Shown in pieces: positions 21,496-46,844 of a DNA stretch of 64,000 nucleotides. The notes under the pieces were generated by a model, which saw nothing but the letters and a program-made list of their open reading frames with translations, was not told where the DNA came from and made no database searches. The first letter of the stretch is position 1. Each line of letters opens with the position of its first letter. Source of the stretch: an uncultured Bacteroidota bacterium (GTDB lineage: Bacteria; Bacteroidota; Bacteroidia; 2-12-FULL-35-15); assembly GCA_903847205.1 (NCBI GenBank), contig CAINDA010000061.1, forward strand, positions 124,001 through 188,000, given 5' to 3'. The translations under genes and the position numbers were made by a program.

Positions 21496-23514
21496 ATGGC
21501 ATTCAATTACAAATCACTTAACATCACAAAAATCTCCGTTATCGGAGCAGGACAGATTGGACCTGACATTGCATTGCATTTCGCAAAATCGCTTTCGCCA
21601 AACGGGGTAAGCGTAATAGTTGTGGATATTTCTCCGGAGGCATTGGAGAAAGCAAAAGCAAAAACACATAAAAAAATTCAGAAAGGTGTTGAAGCTGGCG
21701 CGTTCAAGCCAGACCAAGCTGAGAAGATGAAGAACGCATTGGTGTTTTCATCAGATTATGAAAACGTCCGCGGCTCGCAGATAGTGGTTGAAGCAGCTAC
21801 AGAGGATGAAAATATAAAAGACAAAATTTTCCGTCAGGTGGAGTCGCTGACAGATGATACCTGTATCTATCTGTCCAATTCTTCACACATGCAGCCTGAA
21901 GTCATTTTCAGAAACATCAAAAACAAATCCCGCTGTTTAGTAGCGCATTATTTTTTTCCTGCTGAAATAAACCCAGTTGTTGAATTGGTTCCGGGAAAAG
22001 AAACGGATGATACACTTTTAAATCTTTTACTTGGATTTTATGAAGCCATTGGGAAAGTTCCAATCAAAGTAAAAAGTTCTTACGGCTATGCAATTGATCC
22101 GATTTTTGAAGGCATCTGCCAAACCGCAATCATGTGTTTTGAAAAAGGCTGGGGAAGTGAAAAAGAAATTGACGCTGCCGCAATGAAGGCATTAGGACAG
22201 GGAATCGGTCCGTTTACTGCATTGAATCTTACCGGCGGAAATCCTATAACCGCCCACGGTCTAGATGAAATGGGGAAATTATTAATGCCCTGGTTCAAAA
22301 CCCCAAATATTCTTCACGAAAAAAATCAGAAAAAGGAACTTTGGAACATCGCACAGCGTGGGGAAAAAGTAGAGCTTTCTCCTGAAAAAGAAACTAAACT
22401 GGTAAAGGAATTTCAGGGTGCTTTTTTTGCCCTTGCATCTTTCATTTTAGATATTGGAATTGCTGGCATCAATGATTTGAATATGGCCTGCGAAATGTCG
22501 CTGGTAATCAGACCGCCGTTTTCTTTTATGAATAAAATCGGCATCAATAAAGCCTATGATTTGGTGAAAGACTTTTGCTCTGCTCATCCCTCCTTCCCTT
22601 TTCCAAAAGTTTTGGATAAAGCAAAAGCAGATGGCGGTTGGAAATTAAAGGACATCGTTGCTGCTAAGAATGATGGTGTTTTAGTTATCACTATCCGCAG
22701 GCCGAAAGTTTTGAATGCTTTGAATCTTGAAGTTCTTGGCCAGATAAAAAATGAAATGGAAAATGTGAAGAACGACAGTTCAGTTAAAGCTATTGTTATT
22801 ACAGGGTTTGGAACAAAAGCATTTGTTTCAGGTGCAGATTTGAATATGCTTGCTTCACTCAAAACTCCTGAAGAAGGATACAACAACTCCCACACTTTTC
22901 AATCGGTTTTGAATTATGTTGAAAGTTATGCAAAACCTGTTGTCTGCGCTATGAACGGATTTGCGTTCGGAGGCGGAAATGAATTAGCAATGTCATGCAC
23001 CGCACGTATATGTAAAAAAGGGCTGCCTGTTTTGGTTTGCCAGCCGGAAGTGAATTTAGGATTTATCCCGGGAGCCGGCGGAACACAGCGGCTGCCAAGA
23101 ATTGTCGGCGTTGAAAAAGCTGCCGAAATTCTGCGTACAGCAAGAAATGTTTCTGCAAAAGAAGCTGCTGAAATTGGATTGGTTTTCAAAGAAGCAGATG
23201 GGGACTTGGTTAACGAAGCAGTTAAACTTGCAAAGCAGATTGCAACAGGTGAAATAAAAATTAAGGCAATTCCCAAAGAAGCCATTGCAGTAAATGGGAA
23301 TCCGAAACCTTTGGAAATAGGCCATCTCAGCAAAAAAATTGATGAGATAATTGTGAAAGCAATCTATGATGGTTCACACTTGAGTCTGCATGAAGGTCTT
23401 GAGCTGGAATCACGCATGTTTGGAGAATGTCTTTTAACGGAGGATATGAAAATAGGCATGGAAAATTTTAAAACTAACGGACCAAGAGCAAAAGCAAATT
23501 TTATTCATCAATAG
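21496..23514 (+). CDS. 3-hydroxyacyl-CoA dehydrogenase / enoyl-CoA hydratase fusion
   Basis: A 672-residue bifunctional beta-oxidation enzyme. The N-terminal half is the NAD-binding dehydrogenase (GAGQIG at 17-22, catalytic-type His151 in AHYFFP, helical domain to about 385). The C-terminal half is a crotonase: GAD oxyanion loop near 447, GGGNEL near 492 and PEVNLGFIPGAGG near 517, so both acid/base glutamates of hydratases are kept. The order is the reverse of FadB but matches archaeal-type fused hydratase/dehydrogenases. In the proposed pathway it would hydrate aminocinnamoyl-CoA and oxidise the product to the 3-oxoacyl-CoA. It is the first gene of the operon, 53 bases after the palindromes. 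Confidence 0.93.
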   Translation: MAFNYKSLNITKISVIGAGQIGPDIALHFAKSLSPNGVSVIVVDISPEALEKAKAKTHKKIQKGVEAGAFKPDQAEKMKNALVFSSDYENVRGSQIVVEAATEDENIKDKIFRQVESLTDDTCIYLSNSSHMQPEVIFRNIKNKSRCLVAHYFFPAEINPVVELVPGKETDDTLLNLLLGFYEAIGKVPIKVKSSYGYAIDPIFEGICQTAIMCFEKGWGSEKEIDAAAMKALGQGIGPFTALNLTGGNPITAHGLDEMGKLLMPWFKTPNILHEKNQKKELWNIAQRGEKVELSPEKETKLVKEFQGAFFALASFILDIGIAGINDLNMACEMSLVIRPPFSFMNKIGINKAYDLVKDFCSAHPSFPFPKVLDKAKADGGWKLKDIVAAKNDGVLVITIRRPKVLNALNLEVLGQIKNEMENVKNDSSVKAIVITGFGTKAFVSGADLNMLASLKTPEEGYNNSHTFQSVLNYVESYAKPVVCAMNGFAFGGGNELAMSCTARICKKGLPVLVCQPEVNLGFIPGAGGTQRLPRIVGVEKAAEILRTARNVSAKEAAEIGLVFKEADGDLVNEAVKLAKQIATGEIKIKAIPKEAIAVNGNPKPLEIGHLSKKIDEIIVKAIYDGSHLSLHEGLELESRMFGECLLTEDMKIGMENFKTNGPRAKANFIHQ

Positions 23515-23658: not shown

Positions 23659-25791
23659 ATGAAGTATAACATAGGAATAGATATTGGCGGCACCTTCACA
23701 GATTTAATTTGTGTTTCGTCTGAAGGCAAAACCATTGTTCACAAAACACTTTCAACTCCTCAGGATTCTTCTGTAGGATTCATTAACGGCATCCGCGAAA
23801 CAGCTGAAATGGCCGGCGAATCTTTTGAAAATTTTGTTTCATCCATCGACACAATTGTTCATGGAACTACAGTTGCCACCAATGCTTTACTGACGCTAAA
23901 GGGCGCTAAAACAGCTCTTATTACAACTAAAGGTTTCCGCGATGCATTGGAAATGAGAAGAGGAATCCGTGAAGAACAGTTTAACAATCATTATAAAAAT
24001 GTTGCTCCGCTTGCTCCGCGCTATCTGAGATTTATTGTCGATGAAAGAATTGATTCTGAAGGAAAAGTTGTGAAAAAATTCAACGAGAAAGAACTGCTCC
24101 CTATTATCAAAAAAATTAAAGATGAAAAAGTGGAGTCTGTTGCAATATGTTTTATGAATTCATACAAGAATTCATCTCACGAAAAACTGGCAGTAAAATT
24201 TCTTCGCAAAAATCTGAAAGGTGTATTTGTCACGGCTTCCTTCGAAGTGCTTCCTTCTATCCGCTTTTACGAAAGAGTGAGCACAACCGCAGTAAGCGCA
24301 TTTGTAGGACCTATTGTAGCCAAGTATCTTGATAATCTTACAAAAAAATTAGAAGACATTAACTATAAAGGAACTCTTTTGATTATGCAGTCCAACGGCG
24401 GCGTGGTTGTTCCCGATCAGGTAAAGAAAAATCCTGCTGTTACTGTTTTATCAGGACCTGCAGCTGCTCCAACAGCCGGTGCATTTTACGCTAAAATGTT
24501 AGGCTACAAAAATTGCATTACTGCAGATATGGGCGGAACCAGCTTTGATGCAGCAATTGTAATCGACAATCAATGTGTAACAAGTACCGAAGGAAATATT
24601 AACCGCTACCGCATCGCACTGCCCTCACTCGACATTATTACTATCGGCGCAGGCGGTGGAAGCATCGGCTGGATAAATGAAGGCGGATTATTGCAGATGG
24701 GCCCGCAAAGCGCAGGTGCTATGCCCGGTCCGGTTTGCTATGAAAGGGGCGGAACCACTCCAACCTGCACGGATGCAGATATAATTCTCGGTTACCTTAA
24801 TCCTGATTTTTTTGCTGGAGGGAAATTAAAACTCAACAAAGCAAAAGCAGAGAAAGCAATAAAAAACGAACTCGCCTCCAAACTTGGATTATCTGTTTTA
24901 GAAACCGCAGCAGGTATGTACCGCATCATCAATAGCAATATGGCGCAGGGCGTCAGAGAAATTTCTGTTGAACGCGGCTATGATCCCCGCGAATTTTTGT
25001 TCATTGTTGCAGGAGGCGCAGGTTCCATTCACTCTTCCGAAATCTGCAAGGAGCTTGAGATTCCGATGTTTCTTGTTCCGAATGTTTCATCCATTTTCTG
25101 TGCAGCAGGAATGTTATTAGGCGATTTGAAACACGATTACATCCGCTCTTATTTTACCTCCTTCAAAAATCTCGAAAGAAAGAAATTCACATCATTGTTT
25201 AATGAAATGAAAGAAGAGGGGATGCATGCATTGGTTACAGAAGAAGGAGTTTCACCTGACCGCATTTCGTTTTCTCCCGTTCTTGATATGCGTTATCTGG
25301 GCCAGTATCACGAAGTGCAGATGGAAGCAGGCTGGGATGACGTGATGAACTTTAATCTTGAAAACATATTTGAATTATTCCACAAGGAACATAACCGGCA
25401 GTTTGGCTATTCGCTGAAAGAAGAAGCAACAGAAATGGAACTTATCAACGTGCGTCTGCGCGTTGTCGGGAAAACAGAACGCCCTAAATTTCTTTCGGAA
25501 AATTTTAAATCTATTCCTGCAGCATCTGCAATCAAGGAGCACAGAGAGGTTTACGTTCCTGAATTGAACAGTATGAAAAAAGTTCCGGTCTATGACGGTG
25601 ATAAACCAATTTTCGGATCAAAAATAAAAGGACCATGCGTCATTGAAAAAATTACGACATCCGTTTTTGTAAGTGAAAATTACGACTGCCTCGTGGATGA
25701 GTTCGGTTCATTCATCGTTTACGAGAAGGAAAAATATCCCAAAGGATTTCAATTAAATAAAAAACTTTTAGCTGTACATGAAGATAGATAA
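23659..25791 (+). CDS. HyuA-type ATP-dependent hydrolase/carboxylase subunit
   Basis: A 710-residue protein of the hydantoinase A/5-oxoprolinase/acetone- and acetophenone-carboxylase family. The ASKHA phosphate motif GIDIGGTFTDL is at residues 5-15, HGTTVATNALL near residue 76, SGPAAAPTAG near 270 and ADMGGTSFDAA near 290. The family uses ATP to activate an amide, lactam or enol. With HyuB (14-base overlap) it most resembles in context the IaaCE hydrolase that opens the lactam ring of 2-oxo-indoleacetate derivatives. N-methylhydantoinase, oxoprolinase or carboxylase activity cannot be excluded by sequence alone; the XDH-family and mutase neighbours favour the lactam role. Confidence 0.9.
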   Translation: MKYNIGIDIGGTFTDLICVSSEGKTIVHKTLSTPQDSSVGFINGIRETAEMAGESFENFVSSIDTIVHGTTVATNALLTLKGAKTALITTKGFRDALEMRRGIREEQFNNHYKNVAPLAPRYLRFIVDERIDSEGKVVKKFNEKELLPIIKKIKDEKVESVAICFMNSYKNSSHEKLAVKFLRKNLKGVFVTASFEVLPSIRFYERVSTTAVSAFVGPIVAKYLDNLTKKLEDINYKGTLLIMQSNGGVVVPDQVKKNPAVTVLSGPAAAPTAGAFYAKMLGYKNCITADMGGTSFDAAIVIDNQCVTSTEGNINRYRIALPSLDIITIGAGGGSIGWINEGGLLQMGPQSAGAMPGPVCYERGGTTPTCTDADIILGYLNPDFFAGGKLKLNKAKAEKAIKNELASKLGLSVLETAAGMYRIINSNMAQGVREISVERGYDPREFLFIVAGGAGSIHSSEICKELEIPMFLVPNVSSIFCAAGMLLGDLKHDYIRSYFTSFKNLERKKFTSLFNEMKEEGMHALVTEEGVSPDRISFSPVLDMRYLGQYHEVQMEAGWDDVMNFNLENIFELFHKEHNRQFGYSLKEEATEMELINVRLRVVGKTERPKFLSENFKSIPAASAIKEHREVYVPELNSMKKVPVYDGDKPIFGSKIKGPCVIEKITTSVFVSENYDCLVDEFGSFIVYEKEKYPKGFQLNKKLLAVHEDR

Positions 25792-27460
25792 AATACTTGT
25801 TTCCATTTTTCAGCGTGCTTTCAAATCCATTACGGATGAGATGAGCATTTCATTAACAAAAACAACACGTTCGCCGATTTTATGCGAAGCGAAAGATTTT
25901 GTTACGGGATTATACGATGCAAAAGGCCAGATGCTGGAGCAGACGGAAAACCTTCCGATACTATCGTTTTCGCTGGGGCCGGTATGTAAAGTAATTTTAG
26001 AACAGTACGGAAATGATATTCATGAAGGCGATGTTATCATTCACAACGATGTTTTCTCGATGGGAAATCAGAACAACGATGTGGCGATTTTTAAGCCGAT
26101 TTTTAATGAAAACATTTTAGTGGGATGGTCGGCTGCAAAAGGCCATCAGGCTGATATTGGCGGCGCCGTTCAGGGCGGTTATAATCCAAACGCAACCGAA
26201 GTATGGCAGGAAGCATTAAGAATTCCGGCTGTTAAAATATATGAAAAAGGCAAATTGAGAAAGGATGTCTGGAACCTGATTTTTGCAAATATTCGTCTGC
26301 AAATGGTTCCCCAAGATATCAAAGCCCAGATTGGCGCATGTACACTCGGCGAAAGAAGATTACAAGCTTTCGTTGCAAAATACGGATTGGAAGTTTTTGA
26401 AGCACACAAAATTGCATTGTTCGACGCAACCGAAAAAATGATGCGTGCTGAAATAAAAAACATCCCAAATGGTGTTTACAAAGGCGGAAGCACAGTTTAT
26501 TACGACGGTAAACATAAAGGCAGCAAGTTCCCTATCCGCACTGAAATAACTGTAAAAAACGAAGATATTATTTTCGATTTTTCAAAGTCTTCACCGCAGA
26601 CAAAGGGATTTGTAAATGGAATTTATACTTCAACCTGTTCAGCGATCACACTTACTTTTTTACAAATGGTTAATCCTAATATTCCGCATAACGAAGGAAT
26701 GATTAAACCATTGAAATATATTGTGCCTGAAGGAACAATACTGAACGCCTCCTACCCTGCTGCAACCACTTTCGGAAATCACTTATGTCCCCAGATAGCA
26801 GACGCAATTTTTAAAGCCTTAGGACCTGCAGTTCCTGAAAGAATTACTGCCGGATGGAATCATTTGCTGTGTTCACTGTTTACCGGCAATCATCCGCGTA
26901 CTGGAAAAAAATATGTGGATATCTGTTTCCTTGGACTGAAAGGCGGAAGCGGTGCAATGAAAGGTGATGATGGTTATGACCATATCGGAATGATTGATGC
27001 TTCAGGCGGTGTGCTTGATCAGGATTATGAAATGTATGAACAGCAGACTCCTCACATGATTGTGCAGCACGAATATTTATGCGACTCAGGCGGTGCAGGG
27101 CAGTGGCGTGGGGGATTAGGGACTGTTACGCAGATTATGCTTAAAGGCGCTGACACTACTATGGTAGTTTTCGGCGACGGCGACGTTGAAACAAATTATG
27201 GTTTGTTTGGCGGGAAAGGCAGCGTTCTCAATAAGATAGAGTTGAAATATAAAAATGGAAAAAAGTTAATTCCGATGAGCAAAGATATGATACACGGTAT
27301 ACCTGACAACACTTTGTATTATCAAATTGCCAGCGGCGGCGGCGGTTACGGCAACCCGAAAAAACGAGATAAAGAAAAAGTTTTGCAGGATATAAAAAAT
27401 GAAGTTGTTTCAAAAAAAGCAGCCGAAAAATTTTATGGACTAAAAAAATTAATGAAATAA
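25778..27460 (+). CDS. HyuB-type ATP-dependent hydrolase/carboxylase subunit
   Basis: A 560-residue hydantoinase B family protein, partner of HyuA. Family blocks: SISLTKTTRSPILCEAKDF near residue 25, LSFSLG near residue 66, NDVFSMGNQNNDV near residue 90, KGHQADIGGA near residue 122, and the C-terminal CDSGGAGQWRGGLG near residue 437 and SGGGGYGNP near residue 515. Its ATG lies within the last codons of HyuA, consistent with coupled translation of a two-subunit enzyme. Proposed role: hydrolytic opening of the oxindole lactam, driven by ATP. Confidence 0.9.
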   Translation: MKIDKILVSIFQRAFKSITDEMSISLTKTTRSPILCEAKDFVTGLYDAKGQMLEQTENLPILSFSLGPVCKVILEQYGNDIHEGDVIIHNDVFSMGNQNNDVAIFKPIFNENILVGWSAAKGHQADIGGAVQGGYNPNATEVWQEALRIPAVKIYEKGKLRKDVWNLIFANIRLQMVPQDIKAQIGACTLGERRLQAFVAKYGLEVFEAHKIALFDATEKMMRAEIKNIPNGVYKGGSTVYYDGKHKGSKFPIRTEITVKNEDIIFDFSKSSPQTKGFVNGIYTSTCSAITLTFLQMVNPNIPHNEGMIKPLKYIVPEGTILNASYPAATTFGNHLCPQIADAIFKALGPAVPERITAGWNHLLCSLFTGNHPRTGKKYVDICFLGLKGGSGAMKGDDGYDHIGMIDASGGVLDQDYEMYEQQTPHMIVQHEYLCDSGGAGQWRGGLGTVTQIMLKGADTTMVVFGDGDVETNYGLFGGKGSVLNKIELKYKNGKKLIPMSKDMIHGIPDNTLYYQIASGGGGYGNPKKRDKEKVLQDIKNEVVSKKAAEKFYGLKKLMK

Positions 27461-27522
27461 AATCAAACACAATTCGATAAGATACTTTGTGCCTTAGCGT
27501 CTTTGCAGCAAAGAACAAAACA

Positions 27523-27924
27523 ATGAATCACGAAATAATTTTACCAGACGGCTGGCCGTCACCGAAAGGATATTCAAACGGAATATTGGCTGCTAAAGGA
27601 AGAACACTCTTTTTAGCAGGACAAGTTGGCTGGACACCCGAAGAAAAATTTGCGAGTGACAAACTTGTCCCCCAGTTTGAGCAGGCGCTGAAAAATATTG
27701 CTGCCATTGTAAAAAAGGCTGGAGGCAAAACAGAAGACATCTGCAAAATGACCTGCTTCTGCAAAGACCGAAATCAGTATTTAGCATCAAGAAGAGAATT
27801 GGGGAAAATCTGGAAAGAAATAATCGGCAATCATTATCCATGTATGAGCATGATTTTCGTTGTGGATTTATTAGATCACCCCGCGCTTATTGAAATTGAA
27901 GCAACAGCTGTAATACCAGAATAA
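27523..27924 (+). CDS. RidA (YjgF/YER057c) family protein
   Basis: A 133-residue RidA-family protein. I start it at the ATG at 27523 (MNHEIILPDGWPSPKGYSNG); a longer frame begins with a TTG at 27487 inside a CTTTGCG-type repeat. Family features: GRTLFLAGQVGWTPE, the QFEQALKNIAAIVKKAGG helix and the C-terminal HPALIEIEATAV. Canonical RidA needs an Arg near residue 105 to hydrolyse imines; here the equivalent stretch reads CMSMIFVVDLLD with no Arg, so it may not be an iminase. It sits between HyuB and the acyl-CoA dehydrogenase with overlapping ends, so it is part of the pathway unit. Its substrate is unknown. Confidence 0.88.
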   Translation: MNHEIILPDGWPSPKGYSNGILAAKGRTLFLAGQVGWTPEEKFASDKLVPQFEQALKNIAAIVKKAGGKTEDICKMTCFCKDRNQYLASRRELGKIWKEIIGNHYPCMSMIFVVDLLDHPALIEIEATAVIPE

Positions 27925-29054
27925 TGGATTTTGAACTAAGCGAAATACAAAAACAAATTCAGCAGACCTTCCGCGATTTCACGGATAGGAAAGTAAAACC
28001 TGCTGCAGCAAAATTGGATGAAGAAAAAAAATTCCCATTCGAGCTGTTTAAAGAAGCAGGCGATTTAGGCTTTTTCGGAATGCGGTATCCTGAAAGTGCC
28101 GGCGGAAGCGGATTAGATATTGTTTCCTATTCGCTTGCAGTAATTGAAATGGCAAGAGGTTCTTTATCCCTTGCTGCTGTCTGCACCATGCAGTCGCTGA
28201 TGGGAACTTATTTCTTATACCGTTTCGGCAATAAAGAAATTAAAGAAAATTATTTTGACGAGGCGCTGAAAGGCAGTAAAATAGGCAGTATCTGCATGAC
28301 AGAGCCGAATGCAGGAAGTGATTTAATGGCAATAAAAACACTTGCAAAAGTTACTGAAGACGGCTTTATCCTTAATGGGCAAAAGACCTGGATTACATCT
28401 GCTCCTGTTGCTGATTTTTTTACGGTGCTTGCACGGACTGATAATCATGAACAGCTTTCCATATTTTTTGTACCCGCAAATTTAAAAGGAGTGATGATCG
28501 GGAAAAGTATTGAGAAGCTGGGAGTCCGAGCCTCAGTTACCAGCGAAGTTGCTTTCGTTGAAGTAGCGCTTCCCAAAAAATATTTGCTTGGAGAAATCGG
28601 CGGAGGAACAAAATGTCTTAAAGAAATTTTGGCTGAAATCAGAATAATGACAGCAGCTCTTGCGATCGGAGTGGCTTCAGCAGCTTATGAAGATGCTTTA
28701 AAATATGCCAATGAGCGTTCCCAATTCGGGAAACCAATTGGTAAATTTCAGGCAGTGCAGTTGAAATTTTCCGACATGGCAGTGCAGCTGGAAACTGCAA
28801 AACATTATGTATTGTATGCAGCAACACTCAGCGATAAAAATCTTCCGCGTCAGAAAGAAGCAATGATTGCGAAACTGTATGCCTCGGAATGTGCTGTAAA
28901 CATTTGCGATCAGGCATCCCGTGTGCTGGCTTCTTATGGTTATGCTGTTGAATATAATATTGAAAGATACCTGCGAGATTCAAGATTTACGCTAATTGGC
29001 GGAGGAACATCTGAAATTTTAAAAATAAATATTGCAAAAGAATTAGGACTGTGA
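27924..29054 (+). CDS. Acyl-CoA dehydrogenase lacking the usual catalytic Glu
   Basis: A 376-residue FAD acyl-CoA dehydrogenase with the normal three-domain layout: MTEPNAGSD at 125-133, WITSAPVADFF near 156, RSQFGKPIGKFQ near 265 and RYLRD before the C-terminal GTSEI motif. The base-bearing position in butyryl- and glutaryl-CoA dehydrogenases (YEGT) reads GGGT here (Gly360). The alternative isovaleryl-type position before Arg240 is Ile239, with Glu238 one residue earlier. Decarboxylating benzylmalonyl-CoA dehydrogenase (IaaF) is reported to release the 2-carboxyl group in place of proton abstraction, which would make a missing base logical. Proposed reaction: (2-aminobenzyl)malonyl-CoA to 2-aminocinnamoyl-CoA + CO2. 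Confidence 0.92.
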   Translation: MDFELSEIQKQIQQTFRDFTDRKVKPAAAKLDEEKKFPFELFKEAGDLGFFGMRYPESAGGSGLDIVSYSLAVIEMARGSLSLAAVCTMQSLMGTYFLYRFGNKEIKENYFDEALKGSKIGSICMTEPNAGSDLMAIKTLAKVTEDGFILNGQKTWITSAPVADFFTVLARTDNHEQLSIFFVPANLKGVMIGKSIEKLGVRASVTSEVAFVEVALPKKYLLGEIGGGTKCLKEILAEIRIMTAALAIGVASAAYEDALKYANERSQFGKPIGKFQAVQLKFSDMAVQLETAKHYVLYAATLSDKNLPRQKEAMIAKLYASECAVNICDQASRVLASYGYAVEYNIERYLRDSRFTLIGGGTSEILKINIAKELGL

Positions 29055-30415
29055 GTATTATTAAATCATACGGAATTGCTTTGCCTCATTTCAGAGTTGA
29101 GGACAGCACACTTCACCCGAAAGGTAAAAAGGGTGTGATGAAAGCCGTCTGCTTTTCTGATGAAGATATTATTACGCTGGCATTTCAGGCCGCATCAGAT
29201 ATTCCTAAAAATAATATTGACGGTGTGTTTTTTGCAAGCTCATCTCCAGTTTTTCATAACCGCTATCACGCTTCTTATCTTGCAGATTTGCTAAATCTTC
29301 CTCAGGGAATTTTAGCTCTTGATTTTACAAACTCAGCCCGCAGCGGAACAGATGCCTTGCTTTTGGCAAACGATTTAATTGATTCAGGCAAATACAAAAA
29401 CATTTTAGTGGTTGCTTCCGATGTGTCTTTCCCGGAAATAGGAAAAGAACTCACTGCACCTTTCGGTCATGCGGCCTGCGTTATTCTGCTAAGTAATGAA
29501 AAAGGTAGTGCAGAAATTTTACTGGCGAAATCTTTCAGTTCTTCTATGGCAGAAGAGTTTTCCTACAAATTGAACAATATACAATATGATCCAAGATACA
29601 GCCGTGATGCTGGTTTTAAAAATAATCTTATCGAATCTATAAAGAATATTGTTTCAAAGCCTCAATCAATTGATGCAGTAATTCTTAATTCACTTTATTC
29701 AAGAATGGCCGGCGGAATTTTTGCAAAAGCCGGATTTGAAGAAAAACAATTTGCGAAAGATTCACTCAATCTAAAAATTGGAAATACTGGAGCAGTGCAT
29801 GCCCTGCTCCTTCTCATTAATGAATTAGAAAACGGCAGGAAAAATATTTTGCTTGCTGATTACACAAACGGAACAAATATTTTTGAAATTAAAAGCACTG
29901 CAGCTTTTATAAACAAGCATTTACAAGAGCAGTTAAATAATTACGATCTGGTAAAGACCTATCAGGATTATCTGCAACTGCGTAAAACCGGAAATTTTAA
30001 TTCATTAAAATACGAAACAAAAGAAATGTTTTCTTCCGAAATGATGCAGGAAAGGGAGAAAGAAACATTGCTCTATTTGAAAGGATTGAAATGCGCAGAG
30101 TGCGGAACAATTTATTATTTGAAAGCTGCCCGCTGCAAAAAATGCAAATGCGATAAATTTTATACGGTTCAATTGAAAGACACAGGAACTGTTTATGCAT
30201 TTACTTCGGAACATTATTTTCCTAGTTCTTTTCCTCCAATCACAATGGCAGTAATTGATTTAGACGGAGGCGGAAGGATGACCATTCAGCAGACTGATAC
30301 AATGTATCCCGAAAAAAATAAAATAGAAATAGAGTCAAAAATAAAATTAGTTTTAAGAAAGATGATTGAGAACGATGCAAAGCCTAACTATTTCTGGAAA
30401 GCAATTGCGCTATGA
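29051..30415 (+). CDS. HMG-CoA-synthase-like pseudoenzyme fused to DUF35
   Basis: A 454-residue protein with a GTG start overlapping the dehydrogenase stop. Residues ~1-290 have the thiolase/HMG-CoA synthase fold, but the nucleophile region reads FTNSARSGTDAL, with Ser where synthases have Cys, so it is probably not a condensing enzyme. Residues ~345-450 are a DUF35 unit: a zinc ribbon (CAECGTIYY and CKKC) then an OB fold. DUF35 partners of thiolases shuttle or shield CoA intermediates, as in the archaeal thiolase/HMGS complex and BbsAB of benzylsuccinate oxidation. It overlaps the thiolase gene by four bases and is its likely partner subunit. Confidence 0.85.
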   Translation: MSIIKSYGIALPHFRVEDSTLHPKGKKGVMKAVCFSDEDIITLAFQAASDIPKNNIDGVFFASSSPVFHNRYHASYLADLLNLPQGILALDFTNSARSGTDALLLANDLIDSGKYKNILVVASDVSFPEIGKELTAPFGHAACVILLSNEKGSAEILLAKSFSSSMAEEFSYKLNNIQYDPRYSRDAGFKNNLIESIKNIVSKPQSIDAVILNSLYSRMAGGIFAKAGFEEKQFAKDSLNLKIGNTGAVHALLLLINELENGRKNILLADYTNGTNIFEIKSTAAFINKHLQEQLNNYDLVKTYQDYLQLRKTGNFNSLKYETKEMFSSEMMQEREKETLLYLKGLKCAECGTIYYLKAARCKKCKCDKFYTVQLKDTGTVYAFTSEHYFPSSFPPITMAVIDLDGGGRMTIQQTDTMYPEKNKIEIESKIKLVLRKMIENDAKPNYFWKAIAL

Positions 30416-31593
30416 ATAAACAAACAGACATAGCAATTATCGGAATCGGCATCACGAAATTCGGTGAGCTCTTTCATCAGAGTTATGACGATTTGGTTCA
30501 TGATGCTGCGTTGCAGGCTGTTGCTGATGCAAAGATTTCATTAGATGATATAGGTGCGGCATGGCTGTCAACTGCATTTCCTGAAATAGGCGTATTCAAA
30601 GGAAGAAGCGGGATGGATTTGTCCGAGCCCCTTTCACTATATAATATTCCTGTTACCCGTGTTTCAAATTTTTGTGCTTCAGGCGCTGATGCCATCCGTA
30701 ATGCCGTTAACGCGCTTCGTGCAGGAGAATGTGATGTGGCAATGGCATTAGGTGTTGAAAAACTACGCGACCGTCAGCCTCAGGACAGTATAGTAAAAAT
30801 GATGGTTGAATACGGCCACCCGTTTTTACAAAAAGGATTTACTGCTGCCGGAACTTTCGCTGTGTATGCCAACCGCATGATGAAGGAATACGGCGTTACC
30901 CGTGAAGACATTTCAAACATTTCTGTAAAAAATCACCTGCATGGTTCATTAAATGAAAAAGCATTTTACCGCAAGCCTTGCTCATTAGACGAGGTAATGA
31001 AATCTCAGATGGTTGCTGACCCGCTTACTGTTTTGGACAGCTGTCCGACCACAGACGGCGCTGCATGTGTAATTATGGTTCGTGCAGAAGATGTGGACAA
31101 AAATAAACACAACCCGATTTTCATAAAAGGCATCGGGCTGTCTGTTTCCACGGGTTGGGATCTGCCTTTCTTCGATTCGAATCATGATTTCCTTTCATTC
31201 GAATCAACTCGCACAGCAGCAAAGATGGCTTACAAGCAGGCGGGCATCACAAAACCAATCGATGAACTTGACTTGATTGAAGTGCATGATTGTTTTTCCA
31301 TTGTTGAATTATTGACCTATGAAGATTTAGGATTGTGTAAACAAGGAGAGGCAAAAGACTTAATCCGCGGAAAGGAAACGCAGCTAGGAGGAAAAATTCC
31401 AGTGAATGTGAGCGGCGGATTATTATCCTGCGGGCATCCTGTTGGTGCAACTGGAATAAGAATGGTGGTTGAAGTATCCAATCATCTGCGCGGTAATGCC
31501 GGTGCAAGGCAGGTAAAAAAAGCAAGAAGAGGATTAACACATAACATCGGAGGGCCGGGTGCAATTGCCTCTGTAATAATTTTAGAAAATTAA
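30412..31593 (+). CDS. SCP2-type thiolase
   Basis: A 393-residue thiolase of the SCP-x/acetyl-CoA acetyltransferase-like class. Cys88 in VSNFCASGADA is the nucleophile; EVHDCF near residue 290 carries the second-site His and GHPVGATG near residue 341 the third. It ends with the typical HNIGGPGA...VIIL. Thiolases of this class that pair with DUF35 proteins, such as BbsB, cleave aromatic 3-oxoacyl-CoAs. Proposed reaction here: 3-(2-aminophenyl)-3-oxopropanoyl-CoA + CoA to 2-aminobenzoyl-CoA + acetyl-CoA. Confidence 0.9.
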   Translation: MNKQTDIAIIGIGITKFGELFHQSYDDLVHDAALQAVADAKISLDDIGAAWLSTAFPEIGVFKGRSGMDLSEPLSLYNIPVTRVSNFCASGADAIRNAVNALRAGECDVAMALGVEKLRDRQPQDSIVKMMVEYGHPFLQKGFTAAGTFAVYANRMMKEYGVTREDISNISVKNHLHGSLNEKAFYRKPCSLDEVMKSQMVADPLTVLDSCPTTDGAACVIMVRAEDVDKNKHNPIFIKGIGLSVSTGWDLPFFDSNHDFLSFESTRTAAKMAYKQAGITKPIDELDLIEVHDCFSIVELLTYEDLGLCKQGEAKDLIRGKETQLGGKIPVNVSGGLLSCGHPVGATGIRMVVEVSNHLRGNAGARQVKKARRGLTHNIGGPGAIASVIILEN

Positions 31594-31641: not shown

Positions 31642-32025
31642 ATGAAAATATTATTAGCTAAACCCGGACTTGACGGGCACGATGTAGGAGTTAAAGTTTT
31701 AGCTCATGGCTTAATTGATGCTGGGTTTCAGGTTGTTTATACCGGTTTGAGAAAAACAATCGAGGAAATTGCAGACATAGCTGTACATAATAAAGTTGAT
31801 ATAATCGGCATGTCCATTCTTTCAGGGACTCACTTAATTCTTGCGCAAAAAATGAAAGAAGTACTGCAGGAAAGAAAACTAAATATCCCATGGTTTGTGG
31901 GTGGCAATATCCCTGCAAAAGATATTGAGGAATTAAAAATCATCGGTGCATCACAGGCTTTCTCAACCGGCAGCAAAGTGGCAGAGGTAGTTGCATATTT
32001 TAATACAATAAAAATAACAGCATAA
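31642..32025 (+). CDS. Small B12-binding subunit of an acyl-CoA mutase
   Basis: A 127-residue cobalamin-binding domain protein. KPGLDGHDVGVKVL near residue 7 is the DxHxxG motif that supplies the lower-axial histidine, followed by GMSILSGTH (SxL) and the GGNIP segment (GG). It is the stand-alone small subunit of the methylmalonyl-CoA mutase family, like IcmB/HcmB or the IaaGH pair, not the fused type used for propionate. It lies 24 bases before the large subunit. Confidence 0.93.
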   Translation: MKILLAKPGLDGHDVGVKVLAHGLIDAGFQVVYTGLRKTIEEIADIAVHNKVDIIGMSILSGTHLILAQKMKEVLQERKLNIPWFVGGNIPAKDIEELKIIGASQAFSTGSKVAEVVAYFNTIKITA

Positions 32026-32049: not shown

Positions 32050-33684
32050 ATGTCCGATACAAAAACAAATTCAATAAAAGGTAAAACTGCAAAAGAGTTA
32101 AATGTAAAACCGATTTTTCTTGAATCAGGTTTAGAAGTTAATCCTATTTATACTGCAGCTGAGATTAAAGATTCAGGCATTAAATATGAAATGCCAGGCG
32201 AATACCCTTTTACCAGAGGCATTCACCCCGCTATGTACCGCAATCAGCCGTTTACGATAAGGCAGTATGCAGGTTTCGCCTCTCCTGAAGAAACAAATGA
32301 ACGATTTCAATTCTTAATTAAAAATGGCCAGTCGGGTTTAAATGTTGCATTCGATTTACCTACTCAATGTGGGCTTGATTCTGACGATCCAAAGGCATTT
32401 GGTGAAGTGGGCCGTGTTGGAATGTCGATAGACACTTTAGCTGATTTTGAAATTGCTTTTGAAAACATTGATTTGGATAAAATCACTGTATCACTTACTA
32501 TTAACGGAACTGCAATTATATTAATAGCCATGTATATTGCAATGGCGGAGAAAGCAGGTTATGATATTTCAAAATTAAGAGGAACCGCCCAAAATGATAT
32601 TTTAAAAGAATTTATCGGCCGGGGAACTTGGATATTCCCTGTTGACAAATCAGTAAAATTAGTTGTTGATACTATTGAATACTGTGCACAGCATGTGCCG
32701 AAATACAGCCCGGTAAGCGTATGCGGATATCATATCCGCGAAAGCGGTGCAAATCCTATACAAGAAATGGCCTATGCTTTTTGTATTGCTAAAGCCTACA
32801 CCGATGGTGCTTTGGAAAGAGGCATCAGCATAGATGATTTTGCATCACGCCTCTCATTCAATTTTGATATTTACGGGAATTTATTTGAACAGGTTGCCAA
32901 GTTCAGAGGGGGAAGACGCTTGTGGGCAAAGATAATCCGCGAAGAATACCATGCGAAAAAAGACAGCTCCTGCTGGCTGAGAATGATTGCAGGGGGAGGA
33001 GGAGGAGGCTTAACAAAAGAGCAGCCTGAAAATAATATTGTACGAAGTGCTTACTACGCTTTAATCAGCGCACTTTCAGGAACGCAGACTATGGCGCTCT
33101 GCAGCTATGATGAGGCATATACAATTCCAACTGAACATTCCGCAGAAATTTCATTACGCACCATGCAGATCATGATTCACGAAATGGGAATATGCGATAC
33201 AGTTGACCCGCTGGGAGGTTCCTACTATGTAGAATCATTGACCGATAAGTTTGAAGAAGAAATTAAAAAGGAAATGAAAACTGTTGAAAAATGGGATGGG
33301 ATCATCAATGCAGTTGCCACAGGAAAAATTCAAGAGTCCGTTTCTAAGCAGGCATACGTCCGTGAAATGGGAGTTCAGACCGGAAAAATACCTAAAGTAG
33401 GAGTAAATATATTCACCAGAGAAGAAGAAGCCAAGGATGTTGAATTTCATCCCTACGATCCCAAAACTGCAGACACACAAATTGAAAAATTGAATAAAAT
33501 AAAGGCTGCTAGAAACGATGCAAAAGTGATGGACTGTTTAGGCGCAGTGAAACAAGACGCTTTGAATAATAAAAACTTAATGCCGTCTATTATCACGGCA
33601 GTAAAGGAATACTGCACCGTCGGCGAAATTGTTACAGTCATGAAAGAAGTTTATGGGGAATTTAAAGAACCAATTTTTTTTTAA
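32050..33684 (+). CDS. Methylmalonyl-CoA-mutase-family large subunit
   Basis: A 544-residue TIM-barrel subunit of a coenzyme B12-dependent acyl-CoA mutase. Relative to Propionibacterium methylmalonyl-CoA mutase (constant offset of 16) the substrate-carboxylate residues Tyr89 and Arg207 are conserved as Tyr73 (IRQYAGF) and Arg191, and Gln197 and His244 as Gln181 and His228. Isobutyryl- and 2-hydroxyisobutyryl-CoA mutases lack the Tyr/Arg pair, so the substrate should carry a second carboxylate. Arg82 is Gln66 and the neighbouring Trp is Phe. This fits a phenylsuccinyl-CoA/benzylmalonyl-CoA type mutase as in IaaGH; ordinary methylmalonyl-CoA mutase is the main alternative. Confidence 0.92.
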   Translation: MSDTKTNSIKGKTAKELNVKPIFLESGLEVNPIYTAAEIKDSGIKYEMPGEYPFTRGIHPAMYRNQPFTIRQYAGFASPEETNERFQFLIKNGQSGLNVAFDLPTQCGLDSDDPKAFGEVGRVGMSIDTLADFEIAFENIDLDKITVSLTINGTAIILIAMYIAMAEKAGYDISKLRGTAQNDILKEFIGRGTWIFPVDKSVKLVVDTIEYCAQHVPKYSPVSVCGYHIRESGANPIQEMAYAFCIAKAYTDGALERGISIDDFASRLSFNFDIYGNLFEQVAKFRGGRRLWAKIIREEYHAKKDSSCWLRMIAGGGGGGLTKEQPENNIVRSAYYALISALSGTQTMALCSYDEAYTIPTEHSAEISLRTMQIMIHEMGICDTVDPLGGSYYVESLTDKFEEEIKKEMKTVEKWDGIINAVATGKIQESVSKQAYVREMGVQTGKIPKVGVNIFTREEEAKDVEFHPYDPKTADTQIEKLNKIKAARNDAKVMDCLGAVKQDALNNKNLMPSIITAVKEYCTVGEIVTVMKEVYGEFKEPIFF

Positions 33685-33863: not shown

Positions 33864-35027
33864 ATGCAGTCAAAAAAAAACATAACAGTACTATCACTTG
33901 AGCAGGCACTCGCTTTACCCTTCGCAACACAGCGCATGGTGCAGCAAGGCTGGCGGGTGATCCGTGTTGAATCACCTGCTGAAGCAGGAGGAGGAAATGC
34001 AGGCGATCCCAATCGCTATATTGGTGAGGATTTGGGATACCATGATCTGCATTCTTATTACATCGCTCCAAACATCGGGAAAGAGGCAATAACAATCAAT
34101 CTTAAGAAAAAGGAAGGTCAGGAACTTCTTCTAAAAATTATTAAAGAACAGCAGGTAGATGTATTCATGTGCAACACATTGCCAAAAGGATATAAACAGC
34201 TTGGCATTGATTTCGAAACACTGCAAAAGGCAAATCCTGAACTTATCTGGTGCGGTATATCGGCTATGGGGCCCGAATATCCCGACCGCGCAGGTTATGA
34301 TCCTGCTTTACAGGCATTGATGGGTTATACTTATTTAACGGGTGAGTCGGACGGGAAGCCCGTTCCATGCGGTATTCCGATCATTGATTTAAAAGCAGGT
34401 GATGAAGCCTTCACCCAGGTGCTTTTAGCGATGCTTGAAAAAAACAATACCCGCAGAGGAAAAGAAATTCATATTTCAATGGCACAATGTGCTGCAAGCT
34501 GGCTGATAACAGCACTGCCTCAATTAGAATTTGTAAAAAATGATAATGAATTATTTACACGAAGCGGCAACGAACACCGCAGTTTTATTCCCTGCAATGT
34601 ATATCCTGTGAAAGACGGCTTCGTTTATCTCGCGATAGGAAATGATTCGCAGTGGGCGAAATTCAATGCCCTTAAAGGATTTGAAACTCTTCACAGACCA
34701 GAACGCAAAACAAATCAGGGAAGAATGAGTGACAAAGAAAACATTTATAAAGAAATTGGCGAACACGCAAAGCAATTTACTGCAAAAGAATTTGTTGACT
34801 TGTGTTTGAGCATCAATCTTTCTGCTTCGCCTGTAAACACAATCAAAGAAGTGGCATCCTTAGAATTTATTTCAAAAAAAATGCTAAAAACAAAATTGCC
34901 TGATGGAAAAACAGTTTCTCTTTTCCCTCCTGCAGTTGAAACAGAATTCCTGAAAAAAAACGGGTATTTCTTAACATTAGCGCCTCGTCTCGGTGAGCAG
35001 AACGAACAAATAACATCAGAATTATAA
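33864..35027 (+). CDS. Class III (CaiB/BaiF family) CoA-transferase
   Basis: A 387-residue class III CoA-transferase. The catalytic aspartate is Asp175 in IPIIDLKAGDEAF; RVIRVESP near residue 31 and GYDPALQALMG near residue 144 are family hallmarks. The length is normal. In Aromatoleum a class III enzyme (IaaL, phenylsuccinyl-CoA transferase) supplies the CoA ester isomer needed by the mutase. The same job is inferred here from the adjacent mutase. It is slightly unusual at the N-terminus, which begins VLSLEQALALPFATQ where relatives have a DLS/GPxA-type motif. Confidence 0.9.
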   Translation: MQSKKNITVLSLEQALALPFATQRMVQQGWRVIRVESPAEAGGGNAGDPNRYIGEDLGYHDLHSYYIAPNIGKEAITINLKKKEGQELLLKIIKEQQVDVFMCNTLPKGYKQLGIDFETLQKANPELIWCGISAMGPEYPDRAGYDPALQALMGYTYLTGESDGKPVPCGIPIIDLKAGDEAFTQVLLAMLEKNNTRRGKEIHISMAQCAASWLITALPQLEFVKNDNELFTRSGNEHRSFIPCNVYPVKDGFVYLAIGNDSQWAKFNALKGFETLHRPERKTNQGRMSDKENIYKEIGEHAKQFTAKEFVDLCLSINLSASPVNTIKEVASLEFISKKMLKTKLPDGKTVSLFPPAVETEFLKKNGYFLTLAPRLGEQNEQITSEL

Positions 35028-39583: not shown

Positions 39584-42500
39584 ATGTTAAAGCAAACCAT
39601 CGAAATATTAACTTCTAACCAAGACTCAAAAAAACTTTGCGTAATGGGAAACGTTGCAATTGCCCGCGGAGCAATTGAAGCAGGTGTATGCGGTGTGTTT
39701 GCTTATCCGGGAACTCCCTCAACAGAAATTTCTGAAGTGTTTAAATATGTTGATGAATTTCAGAATAAAAAAGAAAACGAGAAAAGTTTTCCGCAGCAAA
39801 CAAAGCACAGCATCTATTTCGAATACAGCATCAACGAAAAAATTGCACTCGAAAAAGCAATTGCCTATTCCATCGGAAACAAAAGCGCATTGTGCGTAAT
39901 GAAAAATGTTGGAATGAATGTAGCCTGTGATTCTTTGATGTCGATCACTTATCAAACAATTGCAGCGCCATTGGTAATAGTAGTGTGTGATGACCCCGGC
40001 TGCCATTCCAGTTCAAATGAGCAGGACTCTCGCTATTGGGGCCCCATGGCATCAGTCCCTGTTTTTAATCCAGCCACACCTGCCGATGCCATTGAAATGG
40101 TCAAACAAGCATTTGAACTTTCCGGAAAAATTAAACTTCCTGTTATTGTCCGCACTACCACGAGAGTTTCACACACACGCGGGATAGTTACTTACGGTGA
40201 AATTCAAAAAAAAAACCAGGAAGCAAAATTTGACCGCCTGCCCGAACATATCAACATTCCAGCGCGCACGGCATCAGCTCATATCCGCCTGCTGGATAAA
40301 TTAAAATCAGAAAATGTTCTTTCTTTATTAAAACAGAACAGCAGAATAATTCTTAAAGGCGATAACGCAAAGCTTGGAATCATTACTAGCGGCGTGTCTG
40401 CTGCGTATGCAATAGAAATTCTGTACCAAAATAATTTTGCCGGAAAAGTAAATTTGCTTGATCTCGGCTTGATTCATCCATTCCCTGAAAAAGAAGTCTT
40501 GGACTTCCTGAAAAAAGATTTTAAAAAAATATTGATTCTTGAAGAGCTGGATGCCTGCATAGAAACTGCTGTTCGGACTATTGCCCAAAAAAATAATCTT
40601 CAAGTAACTATATTAGGAAAAGGGTTTTCAGAGTTGACCGCAACCGGTGAATTTTCAATAGACTTGTTATCAAAAGTTATTGAAGAATTTTCAGATACAT
40701 CTTTCGAAAAAAATAAAAATATTCCGCTTGAAAATTCAGAAAAATTTCTTGATAAATTACCGCCGCGCCCACCGACTCTTTGTGCAGGCTGTCCTCACAG
40801 AGCTACATACTATCTTTTGAAACTTGCAATACCGCGCGAACAAAATGAATTGATCATGTGCGGCGATATCGGCTGCCTGGGATTAGGAGCATTACCCCCA
40901 TTAAAAATGATTGACACCATCAACCATATGGGAATGAGCATTTCTATGGCTCAGGGTTTATATGAATCATTTCAGGCTTCTGAAAAAAGTAAAAAAGTTG
41001 TTGCTATGCTTGGAGATGGTACATTTTTTCACAGCGGGCTTTCGTCGCTTGTCAATGCCGTTTATACACGTGCTAATATTCTTGTAATTATTTTTGATAA
41101 CCGAACAACCGGTATGACAGGGCACCAGCCTCATCCCGGAGCATCACGTAATCCCAAGTATCACGAAATTGAAATAGCGCCTTTATTAAAAGGCATAGGT
41201 ATTGAAGTAGCAGAAACCATTAACCCTTTCAACGTTCGCGAGAGTTTTGAAAAAGTAAATAAAGCCATGGCACATCAGGGCGTATCTGTTCTTATTTCAA
41301 AAGCGCCCTGCATTTTTCTTCCAGATTTTAAAGACAGTGTTTTCAAGAAAATGAAAATTGTTGTTGATCCAGAGCGCTGTAACTCTTGTGCTAACCATGA
41401 TGATGTTTCGCTTTCCTGCTCACGCTGTTACGCTCCCAAAAATAATTTATCAAGAGCAAAAGCAAAACTTACGGCGGAAATTTCTATTCCCGGCAAAGCA
41501 CAGCTCTGTCCTGCCAACATCTGCAATCACGGCTTTTTTAACTCTATTCTTGAAGGCGATTATAAATCGGCAGTAGAAATAGTAAGAGATAAAATGTTGT
41601 TCGCCCGTACTTGCGGCGACATCTGCCATCGCCCCTGCGAATTGTTTTCAAAAGAAAATAATATTGTCCCTATAAAAAAACTAAAACATTTTGTTTCCGC
41701 CATTGAAGAAAATTTTAACGATTTTTCTGCACCAATTAAAAGAGCAAAAGATTCGGTTAAAAAAAATAAAACTATAGCAATTATCGGCGCAGGTCCAGCC
41801 GGCTTAAGCGCTGCTTATGATTTAATTCAGTCTGGATATGACGTAAGTATTTTTGAAAAAGAAAATAAACCAGGCGGAATGGTCACTTATGCTATACCCT
41901 ATTTCAGAATGGATAAAGCAGGATTTGATTATGAAACCGTGCAGCTGGAGAAAATGGGAGTAAAATTTAATTTCAATAAATCACTTGGAAAAGATTTTAC
42001 GCTCGAAAAATTATCGAACGAATACGATTCTGTTATCCTTGCAATTGGCATGAACAAGTCTAAAACACTTGATCTTATCGAAAACAATATTCCATTCGAA
42101 AAAAAAATTGACGCACTTGCGTTCTTAAAATCTTTTAACCAAAATGAAAGTAAAATAAAAGCAGGATCAGTTATTCTTGTTATCGGCGGGGGAAACAGTG
42201 CTATTGATGCAGCAAGGTCTGCGAAAAAACTGAGTTCAAAAAATCGGATTGTTGTTTCATGTATTGAAACTGAAACCACCATGCCTGCTTTTGCAGAAGA
42301 GGTAAAGCATGCTGCTGCGGAAGGGGTTGAATTTATTTTTGATAGTTATGCAGATAGAGTTTTTGCTGAAGCCGAAGGGAAAATAAATGTCACCCTTCAT
42401 TCGTTCAGTAATAAAAATCACATACGTGATTTACGATCCGATTATATCATTACTGCCATTGGGCAGTCAGCTGCGTCATCAGAAATTGAAAGTCTGGTTG

Positions 42501-42952
42501 CAGACGGAAACTCAAGAGTTAAAAGTGAAAATAGTTTTACAGGATACAAAAATATTTTTGCGGCAGGTGATATAAGTTCAGGAAATAACATGAGTGTTAT
42601 CGGCGCAATTGCTTCTGGTAAAAAGGCTGCTTCCGGAGTTCGGAAATTATTGGAAAATTACCCGTTTGAATACGAAGGTGAAAAGGCCCTGGAACGTTTG
42701 AATTCAAACACCTGCGCTATGCATCAATTAGGAAGTACAATTATCGGCGATAATATAAAGTTGGAAATTGAAAAATACAACCTGCACCAAGCCTGTCAGA
42801 AATGCAATCATTGCATTGATAATTTCGGCTGCCCTGCAATGGTAAAAGTAAATGGCAAAGTGCAGATTGATATGAGCCGCTGCAATTTATGCGGATTGTG
42901 TATTGAAGTCTGCCCGAATAATGCGATTATGTGGGAAACGGAAACTGTTTAA
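39584..42952 (+). CDS. iorA: IorA - GltD-like - ferredoxin fusion (2-oxoacid oxidoreductase)
   Basis: A 1122-residue fusion. Residues ~1-585 are indolepyruvate ferredoxin oxidoreductase alpha (AYPGTPSTEI, LCAGCPHRATYY, GDIGCLG and the thiamine-diphosphate motif GDGTFFHSG near 480). Then comes a GltD/NfnB-type module: N-terminal Fe-S helical domain (about 592-715), FAD motif IAIIGAGPAGLSAAYD (731), nucleotide motif VIGGGNSAID (865) and AAGDISSG (990). The end (about 1066-1122) is a two-cluster ferredoxin (CQKCNHC, CNLCGLCIEVCP), normally directly after the TPP domain in IorA. The design would pass electrons from 2-oxoacid oxidation to NAD(P), like phenylglyoxylate:NAD oxidoreductase. Proposed substrate: indolepyruvate giving indoleacetyl-CoA. 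Confidence 0.9.
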   Translation: MLKQTIEILTSNQDSKKLCVMGNVAIARGAIEAGVCGVFAYPGTPSTEISEVFKYVDEFQNKKENEKSFPQQTKHSIYFEYSINEKIALEKAIAYSIGNKSALCVMKNVGMNVACDSLMSITYQTIAAPLVIVVCDDPGCHSSSNEQDSRYWGPMASVPVFNPATPADAIEMVKQAFELSGKIKLPVIVRTTTRVSHTRGIVTYGEIQKKNQEAKFDRLPEHINIPARTASAHIRLLDKLKSENVLSLLKQNSRIILKGDNAKLGIITSGVSAAYAIEILYQNNFAGKVNLLDLGLIHPFPEKEVLDFLKKDFKKILILEELDACIETAVRTIAQKNNLQVTILGKGFSELTATGEFSIDLLSKVIEEFSDTSFEKNKNIPLENSEKFLDKLPPRPPTLCAGCPHRATYYLLKLAIPREQNELIMCGDIGCLGLGALPPLKMIDTINHMGMSISMAQGLYESFQASEKSKKVVAMLGDGTFFHSGLSSLVNAVYTRANILVIIFDNRTTGMTGHQPHPGASRNPKYHEIEIAPLLKGIGIEVAETINPFNVRESFEKVNKAMAHQGVSVLISKAPCIFLPDFKDSVFKKMKIVVDPERCNSCANHDDVSLSCSRCYAPKNNLSRAKAKLTAEISIPGKAQLCPANICNHGFFNSILEGDYKSAVEIVRDKMLFARTCGDICHRPCELFSKENNIVPIKKLKHFVSAIEENFNDFSAPIKRAKDSVKKNKTIAIIGAGPAGLSAAYDLIQSGYDVSIFEKENKPGGMVTYAIPYFRMDKAGFDYETVQLEKMGVKFNFNKSLGKDFTLEKLSNEYDSVILAIGMNKSKTLDLIENNIPFEKKIDALAFLKSFNQNESKIKAGSVILVIGGGNSAIDAARSAKKLSSKNRIVVSCIETETTMPAFAEEVKHAAAEGVEFIFDSYADRVFAEAEGKINVTLHSFSNKNHIRDLRSDYIITAIGQSAASSEIESLVADGNSRVKSENSFTGYKNIFAAGDISSGNNMSVIGAIASGKKAASGVRKLLENYPFEYEGEKALERLNSNTCAMHQLGSTIIGDNIKLEIEKYNLHQACQKCNHCIDNFGCPAMVKVNGKVQIDMSRCNLCGLCIEVCPNNAIMWETETV

Positions 42953-43370
42953 AATTAAAACATTGAAAAGCTGGCCCTATAAAATAAAACCTAATGAAAT
43001 TGTCAGCACAGAAATAGGTGGTGTTTGGATAAATGAAGATGGAATTCTAGTGATGAAATATGACAATAATTTAGATTTTCAATTAGAAAAAGCAAAATCT
43101 GCGATTAAAATCTGTGAAGAAATGCTTAACGGAAATAAAGCACTGGTTATGATATTTACAGGAGAATTTGGAAAGATGCCAGACGAAACGCAAAAATATC
43201 TTGCTAGCAAAGAAGTTGCGAAACATAGAAAAGCAGTGGCTTTGGTTATTAATAACCTGGTGTATAGGTTAGCCGCTTTAAATATTACCAGAATGAGAAG
43301 CGAATATTATCCAACCGAAGTTTTTACAGATGAAGCAAAAGCTTTAAAATGGCTAAAACAACAGCAATGA
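42903..43370 (+). CDS. STAS/SpoIIAA-like small protein between iorA and iorB
   Basis: A protein of up to 155 residues with the start unsure: the longest frame (ATG 42903) overlaps the end of iorA by 50 bases. The recognisable core begins around WPYKIKPNE (about 42972), just past the iorA stop. The core resembles STAS/SEC14-type (SpoIIAA-like, DUF7793-type) domains of Bacteroidota: a strand EIGGVWINEDGILVMKY, a helix of a KAKSAIKICEEML type, a strand KALVMIFTG, and a basic helix before ALVINNLVYRLAALN. Its position between two subunits of one enzyme suggests a regulatory or assembly role, but no such role is known. It overlaps iorB by four bases. Confidence 0.7.
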   Translation: MKSARIMRLCGKRKLFKIKTLKSWPYKIKPNEIVSTEIGGVWINEDGILVMKYDNNLDFQLEKAKSAIKICEEMLNGNKALVMIFTGEFGKMPDETQKYLASKEVAKHRKAVALVINNLVYRLAALNITRMRSEYYPTEVFTDEAKALKWLKQQQ

Positions 43371-44520: not shown

Positions 44521-44528
44521 TATTTAGA

Positions 44529-46841: not shown

Positions 46842-46844
46842 TGT

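Follow-up and report, generated by a model that had tools for sequence, protein, structure and literature searches.

The acyl-CoA dehydrogenase (ACAD) encoded at positions 27924-29054 (+ strand) of the window, that is, the whole stretch of 64,000 nucleotides analysed here, is very probably the IaaF of a Bacteroidota bacterium, a dehydrogenase that uses FAD to oxidise and decarboxylate (2-aminobenzyl)malonyl-CoA and belongs to a cluster for the degradation of indoleacetyl-CoA. This reading holds because the protein falls in one clade with the ACADs of iaa clusters, and because its neighbours encode HyuA/HyuB, a B12 mutase, a class III CoA-transferase and a Mo-hydroxylase. Membership of the IaaF family is predicted from motif, clade and context, with five Burkholderiales-order homologues standing in for the A. 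aromaticum and F. placidus proteins; the reaction would be the one published for the A. aromaticum enzyme. Flavin oxidation begun by CO2 loss, a rare type of reaction, would thereby be extended to the Bacteroidota, a phylum unnamed in the part of the IaaF text of PMC8360864 available to us. A literature search, outside which most subscription papers lie, returned no title or opening of an abstract describing a Bacteroidota IaaF. The loss of the C-terminal Glu and the mechanistic idea are already published for IaaF (PMC8360864); new here are a check of the double loss throughout the clade, a cluster in Bacteroidota that also encodes an indolepyruvate oxidoreductase and an aminotransferase, and the distribution of ETF genes.

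The window is part of contig C61 of a 5.49-Mb genome in 72 contigs, which we assign to Bacteroidota from its genes and from relatives such as the 72%-identical protein L097 of Flavobacteriales. The ORF starts with ATG, contains no internal stop and encodes 376 residues, and no comparable frame was found on the strand opposite 27924-29054. A broken gene was rejected, as the frame is open and seven further genomes of the same genus encode the protein at 78-93% identity. All three Pfam ACAD domains (N-terminal, middle and C-terminal) are complete, and the AlphaFold2 model has the ACAD fold with high confidence (mean pLDDT 91.9, pTM 0.92). Among solved structures it comes closest to short-chain ACADs: 8sgs superposes with a Z of 53.9 and an rmsd of 1.8 across 373 residues, at 39% identity. 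A short-chain ACAD is also the best PDB sequence match (268.8 bits). None of the 21 NCBIfam families listed reached its cut-off and none of them is named for IaaF; a search of a plasmid collection with the ACAD at E 1e-80 gave no match.

The earlier note had read a Gly in place of the C-terminal catalytic Glu, in GGGTSEI, and this is borne out by the HMMER alignment to rat short-chain ACAD (1jqi), in which RYLRDSRFTLIGGGTSEI pairs with RYYRDARITEIYEGTSEI. The C-terminal loop of the window ACAD is LIGGGTSEI (IGGGTSEI compared with IYEGTSEI in the rat enzyme); Gly360 stands for the catalytic Glu of YEG and Gly359 for its Tyr, GGG being residues 359-361. The second base position lies in helix G, where E286 is the base of human isovaleryl-CoA dehydrogenase (PMC12369846). 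In the window ACAD this stretch is LAEIRIM, and alignment to the two isovaleryl-type paralogues of the host genome places Ile239 opposite their Glu, directly preceded by Glu238, as had also been read. Eight other ACADs were found in the host genome at E 1e-10, six with the C-terminal Glu and two with the helix-G Glu; each has exactly one catalytic Glu, and none has both or neither. The residue loss in the window ACAD is thus not due to chance, since all eight paralogues keep one Glu while all 39 orthologues (the window ACAD and 38 relatives from several phyla, which form the motif and tree set) keep GGG and an Ile or Val at 239 (Ile in 37, Val in 2).

These residues set the protein apart from the better-known ACADs. 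Assignment as an ordinary short- or medium-chain ACAD fails on the Glu of the C-terminal loop, which is Gly360 here. A glutaryl-type ACAD was rejected for the same residue: glutaryl-CoA dehydrogenase (3mpi, 1siq) also combines oxidation with decarboxylation, but keeps the C-terminal Glu (E370 in human) and drops the far carboxyl after oxidation (PMC8360864). Isovaleryl-CoA dehydrogenase (1ivh) shares the ACAD fold and a C-terminal position without Glu, and is in the nearest tree group; an isovaleryl-type ACAD was nevertheless rejected, as Ile239 replaces its helix-G base and Ile or Val occupies this position throughout the clade.

The earlier note had also taken loss of the base as support for a decarboxylating role and as independent evidence for the pathway. 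The decarboxylating reading stands on motif, clade and gene context; loss of the C-terminal Glu, taken alone, is weak evidence for IaaF. GGG is common in ACADs with an isovaleryl-type Glu and in desulfinase-like ACADs: among the matches listed, 89 of 103 non-IaaF GGG ACADs have Glu at position 239, 13 have Gln and one has Asp. This comparison set comprises proteins of at least 330 residues from a motif scan, shorter ORFs and the fragment L067 being excluded. The idea that GGG by itself indicates decarboxylation was rejected on this comparison. Among the matches listed, only the IaaF clade combined GGG with an aliphatic residue 239; judged from these alignments, the absence of both Glu, together with an aliphatic side chain at the isovaleryl-type position, would mark IaaF, a sharper sequence rule than GGG.

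The Gln group bears on a second kind of base-less ACAD, 3-sulfinopropionyl-CoA desulfinase (5af7/5ahs), which likewise lacks both Glu residues (AGG or GGG, with Gln at 239) and in which the leaving group of the substrate replaces deprotonation. That the window ACAD is such an enzyme, removing a leaving group with zero net oxidation, is extremely improbable: it carries Ile and matches 5af7 at 176 bits, compared with 556 bits for a true relative from the Gln group (L048), and nothing in its neighbouring genes points to a sulfinate as substrate. The seven desulfinase-like rows of the tree, all with Gln at 239, form a clade of their own (100/100), and the overall desulfinase reaction is completely different (PMC8360864).

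The tree was built without the columns of the two motifs (residues 237-241 and 357-363). A single branch, supported at 100/100 and present in 100% of 200 bootstrap trees, separates the 39 members from the other rows. Their nearest group is that of the isovaleryl-type rows (93/94, not starred), which would fit a tentative order of events in which the C-terminal Glu was lost first and the helix-G Glu later. Within the clade, a supported group of 18 rows unites Bacteroidota, Alphaproteobacteria and Burkholderiales-order members with the planctomycete protein L059.

Within the host's order, 8 of 36 genomes contain an orthologue; these eight include the host genome itself and belong to a single genus. 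A search of 395 genomes of the phylum added an orthologue in one more family (G160, 69% identity). Matches of 42-44% identity in five Bacteroidota genomes were rejected as IaaF, their motif being GEG. The motif scan of genome contigs returned at least 119 rows, two of 119 (L026, L113) without a GGG ACAD frame. It revealed members in Flavobacteriales (L097, 72% identical to the window ACAD), Alphaproteobacteria (one Sphingomonadales, one other) and two Planctomycetota and, among the matches listed, an IaaF-like fragment in Marinimicrobia. Its pattern required Ile or Val before GGG and misses the Desulfobacterota form, which has Tyr, Phe or Asn there. Alignment A1 was used as query at E 1e-130 for two wider searches, in the order of an Aquabacterium genome, which we take to be Burkholderiales (5 of 399 genomes matching), and in the phylum of a Desulfarculaceae genome, taken to be Desulfobacterota (31 of 297). 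From the latter 31 genomes, 20 ACADs became loci for the motif count and 19 neighbourhoods were fetched; neighbourhoods were fetched for four of the five Burkholderiales-order genomes (G795 was left out). GGG together with Ile239 or Val239 is present at all 25 Burkholderiales-order and Desulfobacterota loci, and the window ACAD is 55-57% identical to the five Burkholderiales-order homologues.

Glu238 could in principle be a displaced base, in which case the window ACAD would be an ordinary dehydrogenase acting on some bulky acyl-CoA. Position 238 is indeed acidic in 36 of the 39 clade members (Glu 33, Asp 3) compared with 4 of 113 other ACADs. However, the remaining members have Lys (L059), Gln (L090) and Arg (L134), and the gene for L134 adjoins those for HyuA, HyuB, both mutase subunits and a CoA-transferase. 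With three of 39 members departing in this way, one of them with iaa-type neighbours, Glu238 is unlikely to be an essential base, although it may have a helper role. In the model, moreover, 238 and 239 lie in one helix (228-264), where adjacent residues point about 100 degrees apart, and the IaaF that has been studied requires a 2-carboxyacyl-CoA (PMC8360864). Overall we regard a displaced base as very unlikely. Most of the remaining acidic positions conserved in the clade also occur in other ACADs; an Asp or Glu at 329, one helical turn from Arg333, is enriched in it (24 of 113 others). Arg333 is present in all 39 members, where 109 of 113 other ACADs have Gln, and Arg54 in all 38 members covering the position, compared with 7 of 113 others. 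Met89, Gln90, Leu92, Thr95, Phe355 and Leu357 are also characteristic of the clade. As a guess, Arg54 is a candidate for positioning the 2-carboxylate.

The published IaaF of A. aromaticum oxidises and decarboxylates benzylmalonyl-CoA to cinnamoyl-CoA, and GGG for YEG is described as the signature of all IaaF orthologues (PMC8360864). The earlier note's account of IaaF, in which abstraction of the C2 proton is exchanged for loss of the 2-carboxyl group, agrees with the mechanism proposed in that paper, where the order of CO2 loss and hydride transfer is also a proposal (PMC8360864). The lack of the catalytic Glu in benzylmalonyl-CoA dehydrogenase is repeated in PMC11659651; in the part of PMC8360864 available to us, no discussion of the second base position was found. 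By analogy, the GGG loop and the helix-G Ile of the window ACAD would leave C2 without a base, and the 2-carboxylate of the substrate would occupy the space left there. Loss of CO2 would supply the electron pair, a hydride would pass from C3 to FAD, and 2-aminocinnamoyl-CoA would be produced without C2 deprotonation.

The genes from the fused dehydrogenase/hydratase through the aminotransferase lie on a single strand (+) in the window. The first, a fused 3-hydroxyacyl-CoA dehydrogenase/enoyl-CoA hydratase (21496..23514, Pfam 3HCDH_N and ECH_1), may carry out the next steps on 2-aminocinnamoyl-CoA. It is followed by the hydantoinase A/oxoprolinase subunit HyuA (23659..25791, Pfam), whose gene adjoins iaaF in other phyla and which we presume to open the oxindole ring in an ATP-dependent manner, by the hydantoinase B subunit HyuB (25778..27460, Pfam and synteny) and by a RidA/YjgF-like protein (27487..27924, Pfam and synteny), kept beside iaaF in Bacteroidota. 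Downstream of the ACAD gene are an HMG-CoA-synthase-like protein with a C-terminal OB-fold (29051..30415, BbsA-like), a putative partner of the thiolase, and the predicted thiolase itself (30412..31593, related to BbsB by domain match). Domain matches and synteny identify the next genes as those of an IaaGH-like acyl-CoA mutase, with its B12-binding small subunit (31642..32025) and large subunit (32050..33684), and of an IaaL-like class III CoA-transferase (33864..35027). The best matches to the mutase large subunit are 58-95% identical in 13 of 14 ACAD-carrying genomes and 45% identical in the 14th (G431). A 1465-residue activase-like protein (35064-39461; BcrAD_BadFG ATPase domains in two stretches, DUF2229) is possibly a reductase or activase for 2-aminobenzoyl-CoA. 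This protein, between the CoA-transferase and IorA, has no strong match in the relatives' clusters.

The run continues with an indolepyruvate:ferredoxin oxidoreductase alpha subunit fused to a GltD-like FAD/NAD(P) and 4Fe-4S module (IorA-GltD, 39584..42952), a gene for a DUF7793 protein, and an indolepyruvate oxidoreductase beta-like protein with a POR domain (IorB, 43349..43966, synteny). Three genes encode a Mo-hydroxylase (43987..47714; 2Fe-2S subunit 43987-44520, Mo subunit 44529-46841, FAD subunit 46845-47714), identified by synteny in Burkholderiales-order genomes and proposed to hydroxylate indole at C2. The last gene encodes a HisC-like aminotransferase (47711..48721), which would convert tryptophan to indolepyruvate. 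An enzyme with the IaaF mechanism but another 2-carboxyacyl-CoA substrate, such as an alkylmalonyl-CoA, would be compatible with the B12 mutase, which would form alkylmalonyl-CoAs out of alkylsuccinyl-CoAs, and with the slow turnover of some alkylmalonyl-CoAs by IaaF (PMC8360864). The HyuA/HyuB, Mo-hydroxylase and indolepyruvate oxidoreductase genes of the same run suit an indole substrate, and we give this alternative little credence.

Neighbourhoods were compared in 38 genomes: 10 Bacteroidota (the window included), 1 Marinimicrobia, 2 Alphaproteobacteria, 2 Planctomycetota, 4 Burkholderiales-order and 19 Desulfobacterota. Genes for HyuA/HyuB and/or the B12 mutase lie on the iaaF contig in 31 of them, and in the four Burkholderiales-order clusters the gene order is HyuA, HyuB, IaaF, B12 mutase, Mo-hydroxylase, CoA-transferase. 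Neither HyuA/HyuB nor mutase genes were found on the iaaF contig of one Bacteroidota genome (G415, a 4.5-kb contig), both Planctomycetota and four Desulfobacterota (G847, G1051, G947, G918); three of these four have a CoA-transferase gene there and all four have ETF genes. The Planctomycetota contigs contained no iaa neighbours in the 18.5 kb upstream of the gene for L059, which lies at a contig end (G431), or on the 4.9-kb contig of L090 (G434). The IaaF-like proteins of these two genomes (neighbourhoods L211 and L213) have Lys and Gln, respectively, at 238, and they possibly act on a different substrate. By eye, extra 2-oxoacid:ferredoxin-oxidoreductase-like genes follow iaaF in G427 and G418, with a further set before the mutase genes in G427 (L142:15537-18074, L155:80-2560, L143:1882-4364). 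Also by eye, two clusters have a different thiolase-like gene without match to the thiolase pair of the window (L147:1815-5126, L150:12-1238), and the iaa cluster of G404 includes a different hydroxyacyl-CoA-dehydrogenase-like protein.

In vitro, IaaF uses O2 as acceptor and neither ETF nor dyes, its re-oxidation is called unknown, and some strict anaerobes are reported to have ETF genes in their iaa operons (PMC8360864). The spread of ETF genes bears on this published question of what re-oxidises IaaF. Of the 19 Desulfobacterota, 14 have such genes in the fetched neighbourhood of iaaF (L195, L197-L202, L206, L216-L220, L223) compared with none of the 19 other genomes, in neighbourhoods that differ in length and include some short contigs. 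None of the 17 members of the 18-row tree group with a fetched neighbourhood has ETF genes in it. No ETF genes were found in the window, and two ETF gene pairs lie elsewhere in the host genome.

The window cluster resembles that of A. aromaticum in GGG for YEG, in the B12 mutase and CoA-transferase genes alongside and in the single clade of iaa-cluster ACADs (PMC8360864); it differs in its Bacteroidota host, in the added indolepyruvate oxidoreductase and aminotransferase and in having no obvious CoA ligase. IorA-GltD, IorB and the aminotransferase are kept in G395, G404, G427 and G430, and in G418 on a separate contig, while the four Burkholderiales-order regions gave no convincing match (22% IorA hits in two). 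Nothing similar to a CoA ligase was seen among the annotated cluster genes of the window. Retention of these three genes and the lack of a ligase-like cluster gene suggest that the pathway is entered from tryptophan via indolepyruvate in Bacteroidota. A more specific proposal, which we consider doubtful as a whole, is that Bacteroidota IaaF serves a tryptophan route (aminotransferase, indolepyruvate oxidoreductase, Mo-hydroxylase, hydantoinase, transferase, mutase, IaaF, thiolase) and not auxin uptake, that the Bacteroidota/Proteobacteria group without ETF neighbours uses a non-ETF carrier, and that the clade-specific Arg54 and Gln90 contribute to positioning the substrate's 2-carboxylate and aminophenyl ring. 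Elsewhere in the window, the N-terminal part of a 1534-residue ORF (14274-18878) contains a long Gly-X-Thr-rich repeat that resembles collagen.
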